From Candidatus Accumulibacter meliphilus (GTDB lineage: Bacteria > Pseudomonadota > Gammaproteobacteria > Burkholderiales > Rhodocyclaceae), in the NCBI GenBank assembly GCA_003332265.1, contig QPGA01000003.1:1-41190 (forward strand): DNA of 41,190 nucleotides, given 5' to 3'. The notes below the pieces were generated by a model. The model did no database searches, was not told the origin of the DNA, and was given only the letters and a program-made list of their open reading frames with translations. Positions 492 through 40,589 of the stretch are shown here, in pieces. The translations under genes and the position numbers were made by a program. Within the stretch, counting starts at the first letter, position 1, and every line of letters starts with the position of its first letter.

Positions 492-617
492 TAATGTGAA
501 AGTCGCGCCAGCGACTCACGAATCTCCCTTCTCCCCTTGCGGGAGACGGGTCGGGGAAGAGGGGGAGACGGTCATGCCTTGCATGATTTGGGGTGTCTCC
601 ACGTGTCATGACCGTTA
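492..617 (+). repeat. Dispersed three-hairpin repeat, copy 1
   Basis: This 126-bp element begins TAATGTGAAAG and ends CATGACCGTTA. It is nearly identical to copies at 16194-16319 and 36024-36148 and shares its ends with 40387-40589. It contains three inverted repeats: GTCGC/GCGAC (502-514), a CTCCC/GGGAG stem (about 531-545), and GTCATG-type arms flanking the right third. Its terminal TTA (615-617) is, on the minus strand, the TAA stop codon of sodB. Confidence 0.9.
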
Positions 618-1202
618 GCCGGCGAAGTTGGTCTCGGCGAAGCTCCAGTTGGCGAGCTGGGCGAGGAAGGTCTCGACGAACTTCGGACGCATGTTGCGGT
701 AGTCGACGTAGTAAGCGTGTTCCCATACGTCGATGCACAACAGGGCCTTGTCGCCGGTGGTCAGCGGCGTGCCGGCAGCCCCCATGTTGACGATGTCCAC
801 CGACCCGTCGGCCTTCTTGACCAGCCAGGTCCAGCCCGAACCGAAATTACCGACTGCGGAAGCCTGGAAGGCCTTGCTGAACTCTGCAAACGAGCCCCAC
901 TTGGCGTCGATCGCCGCGGCCAGCGCGCCGGCGGGCGCGCCACCACCCGCGGGTTTCAGGCAGTTCCAGAAGAAGCTGTGGTTCCAGACCTGCGCCGAGT
1001 TGTTGTAGATGCCGCCAGCGGGCGCTGACTTGACGATTGCTTCGAGGTCAAGGGCTTCGTATTCGCTGCCCTTGATCAGGTTGTTGAGGTTCGTGACGTA
1101 GGCTTGATGGTGCTTGCCGTAGTGGTATTCGAGCGTCTCCTGCGACATGTGCGGCGCCAGAGCGTCGATGGCAAAGGGAAGTTGCGGCAGTTGATGTTCC
1201 AT
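615..1202 (-). CDS. sodB: Superoxide dismutase [Fe]
   Basis: This cytoplasmic enzyme dismutates superoxide to O2 and H2O2. The 195-residue protein has the normal family length. Visible metal ligands are His27 (in YHYGKHHQAY), His75 (in QVWNHSFFW), and Asp and His in the DVWEHAYY motif near residues 158-162. The Gln in NNSAQVWNH is the Fe-type position, which favours iron over manganese. The start is preceded by GGAGG seven bases upstream. The gene lies 110 bp downstream of xseA on the same strand. That gap carries a perfect tandem 11-bp repeat (ACAGGGTGAAA twice, 1226-1247, plus strand). The stop codon TAA is contributed by the end of dispersed repeat copy 1, so the 3' UTR is made of that repeat up to the terminator at 433-465. 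Confidence 0.96.
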   Translation of the reverse strand: MEHQLPQLPFAIDALAPHMSQETLEYHYGKHHQAYVTNLNNLIKGSEYEALDLEAIVKSAPAGGIYNNSAQVWNHSFFWNCLKPAGGGAPAGALAAAIDAKWGSFAEFSKAFQASAVGNFGSGWTWLVKKADGSVDIVNMGAAGTPLTTGDKALLCIDVWEHAYYVDYRNMRPKFVETFLAQLANWSFAETNFAG

Positions 1203-15668: not shown

Positions 15669-16196
15669 ATGAGCGACTCGACCTTGCCGACGGCCACTGC
15701 AGCGGCCGCAGCCACGGCACTCCCGGCCTTCGAAAGCAAGATCGCTGCTCCAGATGAGCTGGCCGAGCGCCTCGCCGCTGTGCCGCGGCCCTTGGTGTTC
15801 ACAAATGGCTGCTTCGACATCGTGCATCGCGGACATGTGACGCTTCTCGCCCAGGCACGTGTCCTCGGAGCGGCGCTGCTGGTGGCGGTCAACTCGGATG
15901 CCTCGGTCAAGCGCCTTGGCAAAGGGGACGAGCGGCCGGTGAATGCTTTGGCGGATCGGCTGGCGGTCATCGCGGCGCTGGACTCGGTGACCCTGGTGAC
16001 CTGGTTTGACGAGGATACGCCGCTGCAGCGCATCCTCGATTGCCGACCCGAGGTGCTCGTCAAGGGCGGCGACTGGCCGCTCGAGAAAATCGTCGGCAAC
16101 CGCGAAGTGCGCGCTTGCGGGGGGCGCGTCCTGTCTTTGCCGTTCATCCATCAGACTTCCACCAGCGCACTGCTCGATAAGATCCGTCGCCTTTAA
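15669..16196 (+). CDS. rfaE2: D-glycero-beta-D-manno-heptose 1-phosphate adenylyltransferase
   Basis: This enzyme makes ADP-heptose for the LPS inner core. The 175-residue protein is the stand-alone nucleotidyltransferase half (RfaE2/HldC type), not fused to the kinase. It has LVFTNGCFDIVHRGHVTLLAQA (HxGH motif HRGH, about residues 56-59), then VAVNSDASVKRLGKG, RPEVLVKGGDW and the C-terminal HQTSTSALLDKI. The first ~25 residues are an Ala/Thr-rich extension. The stop codon TAA (16194-16196) is the first three bases of dispersed repeat copy 2. Confidence 0.94.
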   Translation: MSDSTLPTATAAAAATALPAFESKIAAPDELAERLAAVPRPLVFTNGCFDIVHRGHVTLLAQARVLGAALLVAVNSDASVKRLGKGDERPVNALADRLAVIAALDSVTLVTWFDEDTPLQRILDCRPEVLVKGGDWPLEKIVGNREVRACGGRVLSLPFIHQTSTSALLDKIRRL

Positions 16197-16319
16197 TGTG
16201 AAAGTCGCGCAAGCGACTCACGAATCTTCCTTCTCCCCTCGTGGGAGAAGGGTCGGGGAAGAGGGGGAAACGGTCATGACTTTCATGATTTGGGGTGTCT
16301 CCATGTGTCATGACCGTTA
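16194..16319 (+). repeat. Dispersed three-hairpin repeat, copy 2
   Basis: This 126-bp copy best shows the architecture. Stem 1 is AGTCGCGCAAGCGACT (16203-16218). Stem 2 is CCTTCTCCC/GGGAGAAGG (16229-16251). Stem 3 is CGGTCATGAC (16271-16280) pairing with GTCATGACCG (16307-16316). The left TAA is the stop codon of rfaE2. The right-hand TTA is shared with the start of a further truncated copy. Confidence 0.92.
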
Positions 16320-16335
16320 ATGTGAAAGTCGCGCA
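16318..16335 (+). repeat. Truncated 5' fragment of the dispersed repeat
   Basis: TAATGTGAAAGTCGCGC is repeated immediately after copy 2, sharing the junction TTAA, and then diverges. It looks like the remnant of a tandem second unit inserted into, or deleted next to, the first. Confidence 0.75.
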
Positions 16336-34569: not shown

Positions 34570-35679
34570 TCAAGCGCCGCTCTGTCCGCCAAGCAAGCTC
34601 TGAATATGGGCGAGCAGTTGCGCTTCGGGGTAGGGTTTGCCGAGCAGCACGTTTACGCCGGCGGTGTGGGCTTCACCGCGCAACTGCTCACTGTCCGAAG
34701 TGACCATGATGATCGGCAGCCCTGCGGTCGCCGCATTGGCGCGCAGCTGCCGCGTCAGTTGCAAGCCGCTCATGCCGGGCATATCAACGTCGGTAATCAG
34801 TACATCGGGTAAGGCGCTCTCGATTTGCCGGGCGGCGTCCAGTCCGTCTTCAGCCATTACCACTTGATAGTGCTGCGCGCCCAGCAGCCGGCCGGTCTTG
34901 ACGCGGACCACCTTGGAATCGTCTGCGACCATGACCACTGTTTCTTCTGGCGTCTTCGCTTTTGCCGGCGCGACGGTCGCGGTGCTGGCCGCGGCGAGCT
35001 GCCGTGCGTCTTCGGCGGTTTTCCGTTCCGCCGCCCGACGGGTATTTTCCTCACTTGCCTGGCGCTCTGTTTCTCGAGCAATGGCCTGGTCGACCGCCAG
35101 ACGTTCCTCATCTTCCAGGCGCTGGGCTTCCTCAACGGCCCGGCGGTCGGCCTCGGCCTGCGCCGCTTCCCTAGCGGCCTTGCGCTCGGCTTCGGCACGA
35201 GCGGCTTCCTCGGCGGCCTTGCGCTCGGCTTCGGCACGAGCGGCTTCCTCGGCGGCCTTGCGCTCGGCTTCGGCACGGGCGGCTTCTTCGGCGGCCTTGC
35301 GCTCGGCTTCGGCACGGGCGGCTTCTTCTGCGGCCTTGCGCTTGGCTTCGGCACGAGCAGCTTCTTCGGCGGCCTTGCGCTCTGCTTCGGCACGAGCGGC
35401 TTCTTCGGCGGCCTTGCGCTCGGCTTCGGCACGAGCAGCTTCTTCTGCGGCCTTGCGCTTGGCTTCGGCACGAGCAGCTTCTTCTGCGGCCTTGCGCTCG
35501 GCTTCGGCACGAGCAGCTTCCGCGGCGGCCTTGCGCTCGGCTTCGACACGGGCCGCGTCTTCAATTGCCGTCCGTTCTGCTTGCTCGTTCGCTGAACGAC
35601 GTGTGTTGAAGGAGCGCCACGCGAAAAAGGCCACGCCGATTCCTGCGGCGATCAACAACAAGCTCTCATTGATTGACAT
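34570..35679 (-). CDS. Membrane-anchored response regulator with 13-residue coiled-coil repeats
   Basis: The 369-residue protein has three parts. A hydrophobic N-terminal helix (about residues 5-22, LLLIAAGIGVAFFAWR) probably anchors it. Residues 42-184 are eleven tandem copies of a 13-residue unit (AARAEAERKAAEE and near-identical variants), continuing as charged coiled coil to about 230. Residues about 248-366 are a receiver domain with acidic pocket Asp253/Asp254, phosphoacceptor Asp297 in ITDVDMPGMSG, Thr327 in VTSD, and Lys348 in GKPYP. There is no output domain after the receiver. ATG 35679 has AAGGA eight bases upstream. It looks like a receiver held at a distance from the membrane. 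No histidine kinase is adjacent. Confidence 0.88.
   Translation of the reverse strand: MSINESLLLIAAGIGVAFFAWRSFNTRRSANEQAERTAIEDAARVEAERKAAAEAARAEAERKAAEEAARAEAKRKAAEEAARAEAERKAAEEAARAEAERKAAEEAARAEAKRKAAEEAARAEAERKAAEEAARAEAERKAAEEAARAEAERKAAEEAARAEAERKAAREAAQAEADRRAVEEAQRLEDEERLAVDQAIARETERQASEENTRRAAERKTAEDARQLAAASTATVAPAKAKTPEETVVMVADDSKVVRVKTGRLLGAQHYQVVMAEDGLDAARQIESALPDVLITDVDMPGMSGLQLTRQLRANAATAGLPIIMVTSDSEQLRGEAHTAGVNVLLGKPYPEAQLLAHIQSLLGGQSGA
35128..35556 (-). repeat. Eleven tandem copies of a 39-bp coding repeat
   Basis: The 429-bp run inside the receiver-protein gene is made of 39-bp units, each encoding 13 residues. Inner units are nearly identical at the DNA level and differ mainly at the GAG/AAG and EE positions. 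The edge units (35518-35556 and 35128-35166) are the most divergent, as expected for slippage or unequal crossing over. Confidence 0.92.
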
Positions 35680-35823: not shown

Positions 35824-36051
35824 CTAGGCCGGACCTTGGTCGACGAATAGCCCCGATAGCAGCAACTGCCTCATCCCTGCATAGCGGTCAAGCCCGGAAA
35901 CTGAGAGAATGCCGGGCTCGGGAGCGATGCTGACCGGGGCGGCGTTTGCCAGGCGGGCTTTGCCTTCCATGCCCAGCTGGAGCGGTGTGGCGTCCGAGGA
36001 ACCGGCATTGAACCTGGCCGCCCTAATGTGAAAGTCGCGTACGCGACTCAC
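35824..36051 (-). CDS. Short hypothetical open frame beside repeat copy 3
   Basis: A 75-codon frame whose first nine codons come from repeat copy 3. The remainder (FNAGSSDATPLQLGMEGKAR and LSVSGLDRYAGMRQLLLSG) reads like ordinary protein with good codon use, but I do not recognise it. It may be the 3' remnant of a gene whose 5' part was lost when the repeat arrived, or chance. The surrounding gap 35680-36218 otherwise holds only the hairpin at 35761-35779 and repeat copy 3. Confidence 0.22.
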   Translation of the reverse strand: MSRVRDFHIRAARFNAGSSDATPLQLGMEGKARLANAAPVSIAPEPGILSVSGLDRYAGMRQLLLSGLFVDQGPA

Positions 36052-36148
36052 GAACCTCCCTTCTCCCCCTGCGGGAGAAGGGTCCGGAGAAGAGGGGGAC
36101 GGTCATGACTTTCATGATTTGGGGTATCCCGACATGTCATGACCGTTA
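36024..36148 (+). repeat. Dispersed three-hairpin repeat, copy 3
   Basis: This 125-bp copy keeps the same ends (TAATGTGAAAG, CATGACCGTTA). The first stem keeps GTCGC/GCGAC while its loop has changed (GTAC). This pattern of conserved stems and variable loops supports structure being selected. It lies 70 bp upstream of ribBA, and here neither terminus is the stop of a recognised gene. Confidence 0.9.
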
Positions 36149-39372: not shown

Positions 39373-39883
39373 TCCGAATCCTTACAATTCTTACAACCCC
39401 TCCCATCCGCCATCCCTGCAGTTTCTCATGGCGCATCCCGCGCACCTGGTAGCCTGTGGTTTCGGCAGTGGTTTGTCGCCGCGCGCGCCAGGGACTTTCG
39501 GCACGCTCTTCGGCTGGTTGTCGTTTCTGCTGCTGCGTCCGTACATGAGTGACTTCGAGCTGCTGGGTTTTATTGTCGTCTGCTTCCTCGGCGGCGTGCT
39601 GGCGGTACACAAGACCGGCGTCGATCTGGGGGTCGTCGATCACGGCAGCATCGTCTGGGATGAGATCGTACCTTTCTGGCTGGTGCTGCTGTTGTGTCCC
39701 GATAACTGGTTGTGGCAGACCACCGCTTTCTGCCTGTTCCGCTTTTTCGACATCAGCAAGCCGCAACCGGCGCGTTACTTCGACGAGCAGGTGAAGAACG
39801 GATTCGGGGTGATGACCGACGACCTGGTCGCTGCCGGCTATACCGTGCTGGTGCTGGCGATTCTGCGTTTTATCTTGTCATGA
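39344..39883 (+). CDS. pgpA: Phosphatidylglycerophosphatase A
   Basis: PgpA dephosphorylates phosphatidylglycerophosphate to phosphatidylglycerol in the inner membrane. The 179-residue protein has HPAHLVACGFGSGLSPRAPGTFGTL, VVDHGSIVWDEIVPFW and FRFFDISKPQPARYFD, with several membrane helices. The start at 39344, inside thiL, keeps the family segment LQFLMAHPAH; an internal ATG at 39428 would cut it. Its stop overlaps the pncC start (ATGA). Confidence 0.94.
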   Translation: MARDSTTLPDPNPYNSYNPSHPPSLQFLMAHPAHLVACGFGSGLSPRAPGTFGTLFGWLSFLLLRPYMSDFELLGFIVVCFLGGVLAVHKTGVDLGVVDHGSIVWDEIVPFWLVLLLCPDNWLWQTTAFCLFRFFDISKPQPARYFDEQVKNGFGVMTDDLVAAGYTVLVLAILRFILS

Positions 39884-40389
39884 GCGCCAGCGATCAATTT
39901 TCGCTGGAAGCGCTGGCCGCCGAAGTCGGCGAGCAGCTCCTGGCCAATGGCGAGCGCCTGGCGACCGCCGAATCCTGCACCGGTGGGTGGGTGGGGCAGT
40001 GCGCGACGGCGATTGCCGGCAGCTCGCGCTGGTTCGAGCGGGGTTTTGTCACCTATTCGAACGATGCCAAGATCGAGATGCTCGGCGTCGGCGCCGAAAC
40101 ACTTGCCGCGCACGGGGCGGTAAGTGAGGCCTGCGCGGCGGCCATGGCGCTCGGCGCCTTGTGTCGCAGCCGTGCGGATTGGGCTCTGGCGGTCACTGGC
40201 GTTGCCGGTCCGGCTGGCGGGTCTCCGGGCAGGCCCGTGGGAACCGTCTGCTTCGCCTGGGCTGGGCCGCAAGGGCGACTCGAGACCGAAACCCGCTGCT
40301 TTGCTGGCGACCGCTCCGCGGTGCGCGCGCAGTCGGTGGGGCATGCCCTGCAAGGGCTGCTGCAGCGCACCAGGAGGCCATTGGACTAA
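39880..40389 (+). CDS. pncC: Nicotinamide-nucleotide amidohydrolase (CinA C-terminal family)
   Basis: PncC deamidates NMN in pyridine nucleotide salvage. The 169-residue protein is the stand-alone CinA C-terminal domain: RLATAESCTGGWVGQCATAIAGSSRWFERGFVTYSNDAK and ALAVTGVAGPAGGSPGRPVGTVCFAW. It overlaps pgpA by ATGA and closes the rib-nus-thi-pgp run. The stop codon TAA (40387-40389) is the end of dispersed repeat copy 4, so the coding sequence abuts the element directly. Confidence 0.94.
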   Translation: MSASDQFSLEALAAEVGEQLLANGERLATAESCTGGWVGQCATAIAGSSRWFERGFVTYSNDAKIEMLGVGAETLAAHGAVSEACAAAMALGALCRSRADWALAVTGVAGPAGGSPGRPVGTVCFAWAGPQGRLETETRCFAGDRSAVRAQSVGHALQGLLQRTRRPLD

Positions 40390-40589
40390 CGGTCATGACA
40401 TGTCGAGACACCCCTGATGATGAAAGCCATGACCGCCCCCCTCTCACTTGCAGTGCGCATTCCGGCTTGCACGCCGGAATCGTTCGCCGCGCAGGGAGCA
40501 TGCTCCCTGAATTCCCCGCCTCACCCCTGACCGTTCTCCCGCGAGGGGAGAGTGAGTTTCGTGAGTCGCTTGCGCGCCTTTCACATTAA
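40387..40589 (-). repeat. Dispersed repeat, copy 4, expanded and inverted
   Basis: In reverse orientation this copy has the same ends (TAACGGTCATGAC at 40387, TTTCACATTA at 40579-40588). It carries about 78 extra bases in the middle with two further palindromes: ATTCCGGC/GCCGGAAT (40459-40480) and CAGGGAGCATGCTCCCTG (40492-40509). The original CTCCC/GGGAG stem is kept at about 40535-40550. Its first TAA is the pncC stop codon. Confidence 0.88.

Follow-up and report, generated by a model that had tools for sequence, protein, structure and literature searches.

A structured repeat of Candidatus Accumulibacter that inserts at T-TA-R and supplies stop codons to neighboring genes

A short structured repeat, present in four insertions within the window (the whole 41,190-nucleotide stretch of DNA analyzed here), supplies the stop codons of neighboring genes from either of its ends, and in relatives that lack the repeat most of these genes end at the same codon. 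Taken as a whole, the observations are very probably explained by a non-autonomous and recently mobile repeat that inserts at T-TA-R, is silent when it enters a stop codon, and accumulates there through the insertions that survive.

The window is part of a Candidatus Accumulibacter genome represented by a 4.70-Mb draft (91% complete). Its insertions consist of three copies of 125-126 bp and one 202-bp variant. An earlier note on this DNA had claimed four copies of about 125 bp; the number stands, but the inverted copy is the longer variant. The same note had attributed the stop codons of sodB, rfaE2, and pncC to element ends, and all three attributions were confirmed by our own gene calls and Pfam. 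The features are as follows.

492-617, plus strand: element copy 1, 126 bp, TAA...TTA (sequence search; a copy is present in G015, and G009, G011, and G017 are without it)
495-520, plus strand: hairpin 1 of copy 1 (GTGA-AA-GTCGC / GCGAC-TCAC; stem test)
526-550, plus strand: hairpin 2 of copy 1 (CCCTTCTCCC / GGGAGACGGG; stem test), with the most compensatory changes of the stems
569-614, plus strand: hairpin 3 of copy 1 (CGGTCATG... / ...CATGACCG; stem test), adjoining the right end
615-617, minus strand: stop codon TAA of sodB, formed by the right end of copy 1 (own gene calls)
615-1202, minus strand: Fe/Mn superoxide dismutase gene, sodB (Pfam Sod_Fe_N and Sod_Fe_C)
16194-16319, plus strand: element copy 2 (sequence search; missing from G015 and G017)
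16194-16196, plus strand: stop codon TAA of the cytidylyltransferase (rfaE2-type) gene 15669-16196, formed by the left end of copy 2 (own gene calls; Pfam CTP_transf_like)
16318-16334, plus strand: left-end remnant in tandem with copy 2, one TA being common to both (left-end pattern match)
36024-36148, plus strand: element copy 3, which supplies no stop codon (profile hit)
40387-40588, minus strand: element copy 4, an inverted copy of the 202-bp variant with two additional hairpins near position 77 (profile hit)
40387-40389, plus strand: stop codon TAA of the CinA-family (pncC) gene 39880-40389, formed by the right end of copy 4 (own gene calls; Pfam domain)

In the element-free relatives, the stop of sodB lies at the same codon and reads TGA (G009 and G017) or TAG (G011). 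The rfaE2-type gene ends at the same codon with TAG in G001, G011, and G017, and pncC likewise with TGA in G015. At the site of copy 2, G015 has only a left-end remnant, and the site of copy 3 is empty in G015 and reads, by eye, T-TA-G. Elsewhere in the window, the gene at 34570-35679 (minus strand), the product of which has a response-regulator receiver domain, includes eleven in-register tandem copies of a 39-bp unit (13 amino acids) at 35048-35660. A match to an Rfam group II intron domain (RF02003, 100.6 bits) lies on the minus strand at 226-364, near the start of the contig.

A left-end pattern with one mismatch allowed gave a total of 241 matches in the genome and the reversed control only five, and the repeat is therefore not a chance pattern. 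With copy 1 as the query, matches were obtained in 21 of 41 genomes, that is, in 20 of 25 genomes of the genus (own genome included) and in one of 16 outside it. When a pattern from the element interior was searched against a library of named genomes, 79 of the 80 stretches among the matches listed belonged to Candidatus Accumulibacter. The repeat thus occurs in many genomes of this group. The main sample was composed of 60 fetched stretches and the window (1.16 Mb together), picked around listed element copies and not around stop codons. An iterated profile search of this sample gave 181 hits, 129 of them nearly full-length; after removal of hits below 35 bits, the rest formed 125 clusters, each with one orientation throughout. 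The repeat is short, is high in copy number as judged from the left-end matches, falls into 125- and 202-bp classes, and contains no transposase gene. Rfam at gathering scores gave no match on any of the copies in the window, and two plasmid records carried partial matches restricted to the middle hairpin. A 78-bp short form, comprising just 30 bases from the left and 45 from the right, was observed in Ca. Accumulibacter contiguus (L174:278-355 and L192:1052-1129). Three contigs of G015 (C22, C64, and C2) start 3 to 54 bases from an element copy, and therefore the repeat probably breaks draft assemblies.

The edges of the element are sharp in conservation (TAATGTG...CCGTTA). Among 72 isolated copies, the flanking base is T on the left in 66, and G (57) or A (14) on the right, so that a purine follows the TA at 71 of 72 sites. 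The two ends share only TAAYG as an inverted match and lack the terminal inverted repeats, common to a MITE and its parent insertion sequence, that a strict definition of MITEs includes. For comparison with empty sites, the flanks were aligned to DNA of six relatives; 59 sites could be compared in this way, in a total of 99 pairs. Projection gave an empty gap of 2 bp for 39 of these pairs, of 3 bp for seven, and of 1 bp for two, and the remaining 51 were occupied or irregular. Against the closest relative, G015, the clusters of the own genome were read by eye as empty (25), occupied (12), or unclear (6), and TA was present in 20 of the 25 empty alleles, the other five reading CA, TC, AA, GA, and CA, one base away. 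These observations show that insertion takes place at T-TA-R and leaves TA on both sides, in agreement with the earlier proposal of insertion at TA by a core that starts with A on both strands. Target-site duplication and empty sites in relatives are both apparent, although a true duplication of TA and the insertion of a TTA-ended element 3' of TTA give the same sequence and are indistinguishable by outcome. Since most of the compared sites are empty in G015, the element has moved recently, and many insertions are younger than the split from this relative.

The association with stop codons was examined using gene calls from our own simple gene finder, without curated annotation; uncalled genes would inflate the intergenic background. 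Of the 224 full ends in the 1.16 Mb, 39 lie exactly at -3 from the stop of a gene, and at each of them the outermost base triplet of the element, in the inward direction, serves as the stop codon (36 TAA, two TAG, and one TGA). Any other distance from a stop holds at most three ends. The stop-supplying ends, 16 left and 23 right, belong to 37 of 124 clusters (30%), one of the 125 clusters having no full end. A trivial origin of this pattern, in which an element lies near a gene by chance and the gene finder takes its TAA as the first in-frame stop, might be considered, as stop codons belong to the pool of non-coding T-TA-R sites and some overlap (13%) is expected. Such an origin is, however, extremely improbable in view of the 39 ends at exactly -3 against five overlapping ends at all other distances, and it is refuted by the empty sites described below.

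After the 39 gene ends had been placed in G001, G015, and G017, each was projected onto the available relatives and the next codon was read. Nine ends fell outside the comparison, two without hits and seven occupied in every relative found. A readable element-free relative was available for the remaining 30, and for 28 of these one or more such relatives have the stop at the same codon, in agreement with a replacement by TAA that leaves protein length unchanged. When counted by relative pairs, the same-codon stop was found in 47 of 52, and in the five misses the last 4 to 100 bases of the gene are not covered by the alignment. The two gene ends without a supporting relative are L031:7679-9175 and L079:8760-9830. 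Since T-TA-G can be read as TAG from one strand and as TAA from the opposite strand, a left end is expected by the target rule to replace TAG, and a right end TAA. At left ends the replaced codon was seen directly: all 13 of 13 sites show TAG in one or more relatives, and the sole other left-end stop is the TAA of the rfaE2-type gene in G015, where the left-end remnant sits. At right ends the replaced codon would be TAA by the same rule, and this is seen in part only, the nearest relative reading TAA at six, TGA at five, and TAG at four of 15 sites. At L046:4186-4312, two convergent genes use one and the same TA (in G015, TAG for one and TAA for the other), and after the insertion each has its own TAA. 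Successive insertions were observed at L076:9828-9952 and L076:10575-10684, where a thyA-type gene and the next, folA-type gene each end in an element stop; the names thyA, folA, accA, and panB are used here presumptively, as read by eye from protein ends and not from a family search.

The frequency of stop-supplying insertions was then compared with sites without the element. Among element-free non-coding TA sites, 7.4% lie in stop codons, and 13.4% in the T-TA-R context, so that the stop share of insertions is about twofold above that of context-matched sites (30% versus 13%). Left ends starting with TAC are at stops in none of 12 cases, which is true by construction and thus no evidence. 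Part of the excess is regional, because regions between divergent genes are depleted, holding 21 of 118 insertions but 129 of the 386 sites in the background (p = 0.001; seven of the 125 clusters without two neighboring genes were left out). The excess was found also within convergent and same-direction regions when pooled (odds ratio 2.0, p = 0.014), neither class reaching significance by itself (p = 0.10 and 0.08). The element showed no orientation bias in same-direction regions, with 41 opposite and 25 same, against 79 and 57 expected from target orientation (p = 0.65). The trend is weaker in the other named genomes, where the stop share is 20 of 91 insertions versus 31 of 236 sites in the background (p = 0.06; duplicates and ends lying up to 200 bases from a locus end were removed); here right ends make up 16 of the 20 stop-supplying insertions. 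An excess at stop codons was thus found. Of the two outcomes that the earlier note had named beforehand as contrary to its proposal, no excess at stops and empty sites without TA, neither was observed, 20 of 25 G015 alleles holding the TA.

Two causes of this bias were weighed, the survival of harmless insertions and a preference of the insertion machinery. None of the 125 clusters lies inside a called gene, though coding sequence holds 343 of the 792 T-TA-R sites found outside the element, which indicates that protein-changing insertions are lost or never made. Most of the bias can be accounted for by harmless insertions that survive; in view of the lack of insertions in called genes and the depletion of divergent regions, this is the simpler cause, operating without a targeting device. 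Ends within 0-50 bp are as common on the side of gene starts (32) as on that of stops (28, exact stop ends excluded), and hence the purging of upstream regions is incomplete and some preference may be left over. Alternatively, the machinery might prefer stops or 3' gene ends, for instance through T-TA-R together with transcription-exposed DNA, so that the bias would precede selection. The stop excess that remains in the pooled convergent and same-direction regions is in line with such active targeting, as is the comparable number of insertions just upstream of starts and just downstream of stops, which weakens simple promoter purging. All insertions observed have nevertheless passed selection, the absence of insertions from called genes implies strong selection or avoidance in any case, and uncalled genes probably enlarge the intergenic background; active targeting is therefore considered rather unlikely. 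Equally doubtful is a co-evolution of the T-TA-R rule with the A at both core ends as a "stop-codon-safe" system, in which TAG entered one way and TAA the other would both become TAA, entry into 3' gene ends would be free of coding cost, and even a TA used by two convergent genes would be covered. Of the self-limiting insertion strategy proposed in the earlier note, the silent replacement of stops holds, with an excess that proved to be about twofold, but the term strategy itself is not retained, survivorship being the simpler cause.

For the accumulation of survivors, the following course of events may be proposed. A non-autonomous repeat with a core of about 123 bp, without extended terminal inverted repeats, inserts at T-TA-R in one orientation, TA being found on both sides afterwards. 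As the core begins with A from either end, a gene whose TAG is entered at the left end still stops there, now with TAA, and so would a gene whose TAA is entered at the right end; stop codons thereby belong to the small set of TA positions that can take up the element silently. Genic insertions, and many of those in promoter regions, would be lost, and the survivors would pile up at stops. The right end of the element is itself a T-TA-G site, on which new copies may land to form head-to-tail arrays with one common TA. Two or three hits were present in 37 clusters, of which 31 are tandem arrays and six represent the 202-bp form scored twice, and full-length neighboring pairs overlap by exactly 2 bp, the TA, in 23 of 23 cases. 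Mean identity is 0.90 in these 23 pairs and 0.87 in unlinked pairs, and thus both copying in place and re-insertion are possible. At several occupied sites, the copy number of the array differs between the own genome and G015.

To examine the predicted folding of the repeat, 42 diverse copies were selected among 182 nearly full ones and aligned, and the alignment was tested against three stems named beforehand by the analyst. In the three-stem structure 94.6% of cells pair, against 34-49% with slid partners. Changes on both sides were found in 28 cells, 22 of these in the middle stem; two control counts do not stand out, namely doubly changed pairs (5, reached in 40 of 500 shuffles) and further pair types (22, reached in 394 of 500). 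RNAalifold alone gave only the first two stems, hairpin 3 being absent from its consensus. A T run is missing downstream of all three hairpins, and the search of 400-700 for intrinsic terminators gave a sole terminator-like site at 440-459, outside copy 1. Conserved folding of this kind would suit recognition by a mobilizing enzyme or protection of mRNA ends.

The sequence alone fits two models of mobilization. One is single-strand insertion by an HUH/Y1 enzyme of the IS200/IS605 or REP-transposase type, 3' of TTA and without true duplication, the 3' end of the element being TTA. The hairpins near both ends, which would serve as recognition structures, the lack of extended inverted repeats, and the fixed orientation to the target are in favor of this model, as are the four Y1 transposase (Y1_Tnp) genes in the genome and the presence of at least one in 25 of 28 genus genomes. 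In most aligned copies GAAA lies 5' of both outer hairpins, which we take to resemble the guide sequences of IS200/IS605. On the other hand, the surroundings of the four Y1 genes (up to 1.5 kb, one side being cut by a contig end for three of them) contained no element copy, G012 (88% complete) has many copies and no Y1 match, and the purine after TA at nearly all sites is unexpected if the target is read on its 5' side only. The single-strand model is accordingly held as a tentative possibility. The other model is DDE transposition of the IS630/mariner type, with a TA target and TA duplication and with the element as a deletion derivative. This would account for the TA at both ends, and DDE_3 (IS630) matches are present in 20 of 28 genus genomes. 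It is, however, judged improbable, since DDE_3 is missing from the own genome (at its 91% completeness) as well as from G004, G012, and G023, all of them element carriers, the element ends match inversely in TAAYG only, and five IS630-type elements, delimited by comparing two copies of each, have ends unrelated to those of the repeat, with weak matches at other loci at chance level. Across the 28 genus genomes, neither Y1 nor DDE_3 presence tracks the element cleanly.

An autonomous parent was looked for in 201 loci (2.83 Mb) as element ends lying far apart on one strand. One well-scored pair (L035:5220-6778) was a split copy, inside which sits a transposase gene that we take to be of the IS110 type from its protein sequence. 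Two other distant pairs each had a very weak partner. At 20 IS630-type and Y1 loci of relatives, end-like matches were at chance level besides a full element copy near one Y1 gene of G015 (L254) and a degenerate right end at L240, lying outside an IS. No insertion sequence with the ends of the repeat was present among these loci.

The repeat offers a clean natural case, with alleles before and after insertion, of a mobile element that replaces stop codons and leaves the proteins unchanged. In stretches selected for holding the element, 38 of 153 TAA stops (about a quarter) are at the element. It places structured 3' ends on apparently essential genes (thyA, folA, accA, and panB), makes the question of targeting or survival testable, and gives polymorphic markers for Accumulibacter lineages.

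ERIC is one long palindrome, whereas the Accumulibacter repeat has three separate hairpins and its replacement of stops is shown with empty sites. ERIC (RU-1) is otherwise similar in length (127 bp), structured, and flanked by TA at both ends with TA duplication (PMC2759123), and is normally intergenic (PMC10969869). A blastn search of an E. coli collection (20,395 records, E 1e-5) gave no match to the repeat, and any homology with ERIC would be very distant. Among short non-autonomous elements, Correia (NEMIS) and RUP mostly have TA termini, and RUP is tied to IS630-Spn1 via terminal inverted repeats (PMC2229807); such repeats are absent from the Accumulibacter element, and no parent was found in the searched loci. 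Repeats that supply stop codons are already known. BOX of Streptococcus pneumoniae encodes the stop of 36 annotated genes, without strong evidence for truncation, but it can exceed 500 bp and is made up of A, B, and C boxes, and the part of that report considered here gives neither a target rule nor codon-exact empty sites (PMC3049150). The termini of GTAG REPs often give a TAG stop to flanking genes, and these elements lie mainly between same-direction or convergent genes, many adjoining 3' ends (PMC3733652). They are palindromes of 20-40 bp with a GTAG tag, in contrast to the repeat of about 125 bp described here, which has no GTAG terminus and provides TAA from both ends. No description of this repeat came up in searches of the open-licence literature. 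As far as searched, therefore, what is new is the Accumulibacter element itself, together with its codon-exact alleles before and after insertion, its orientation rule, and the convergent gene pair that uses a single TA.
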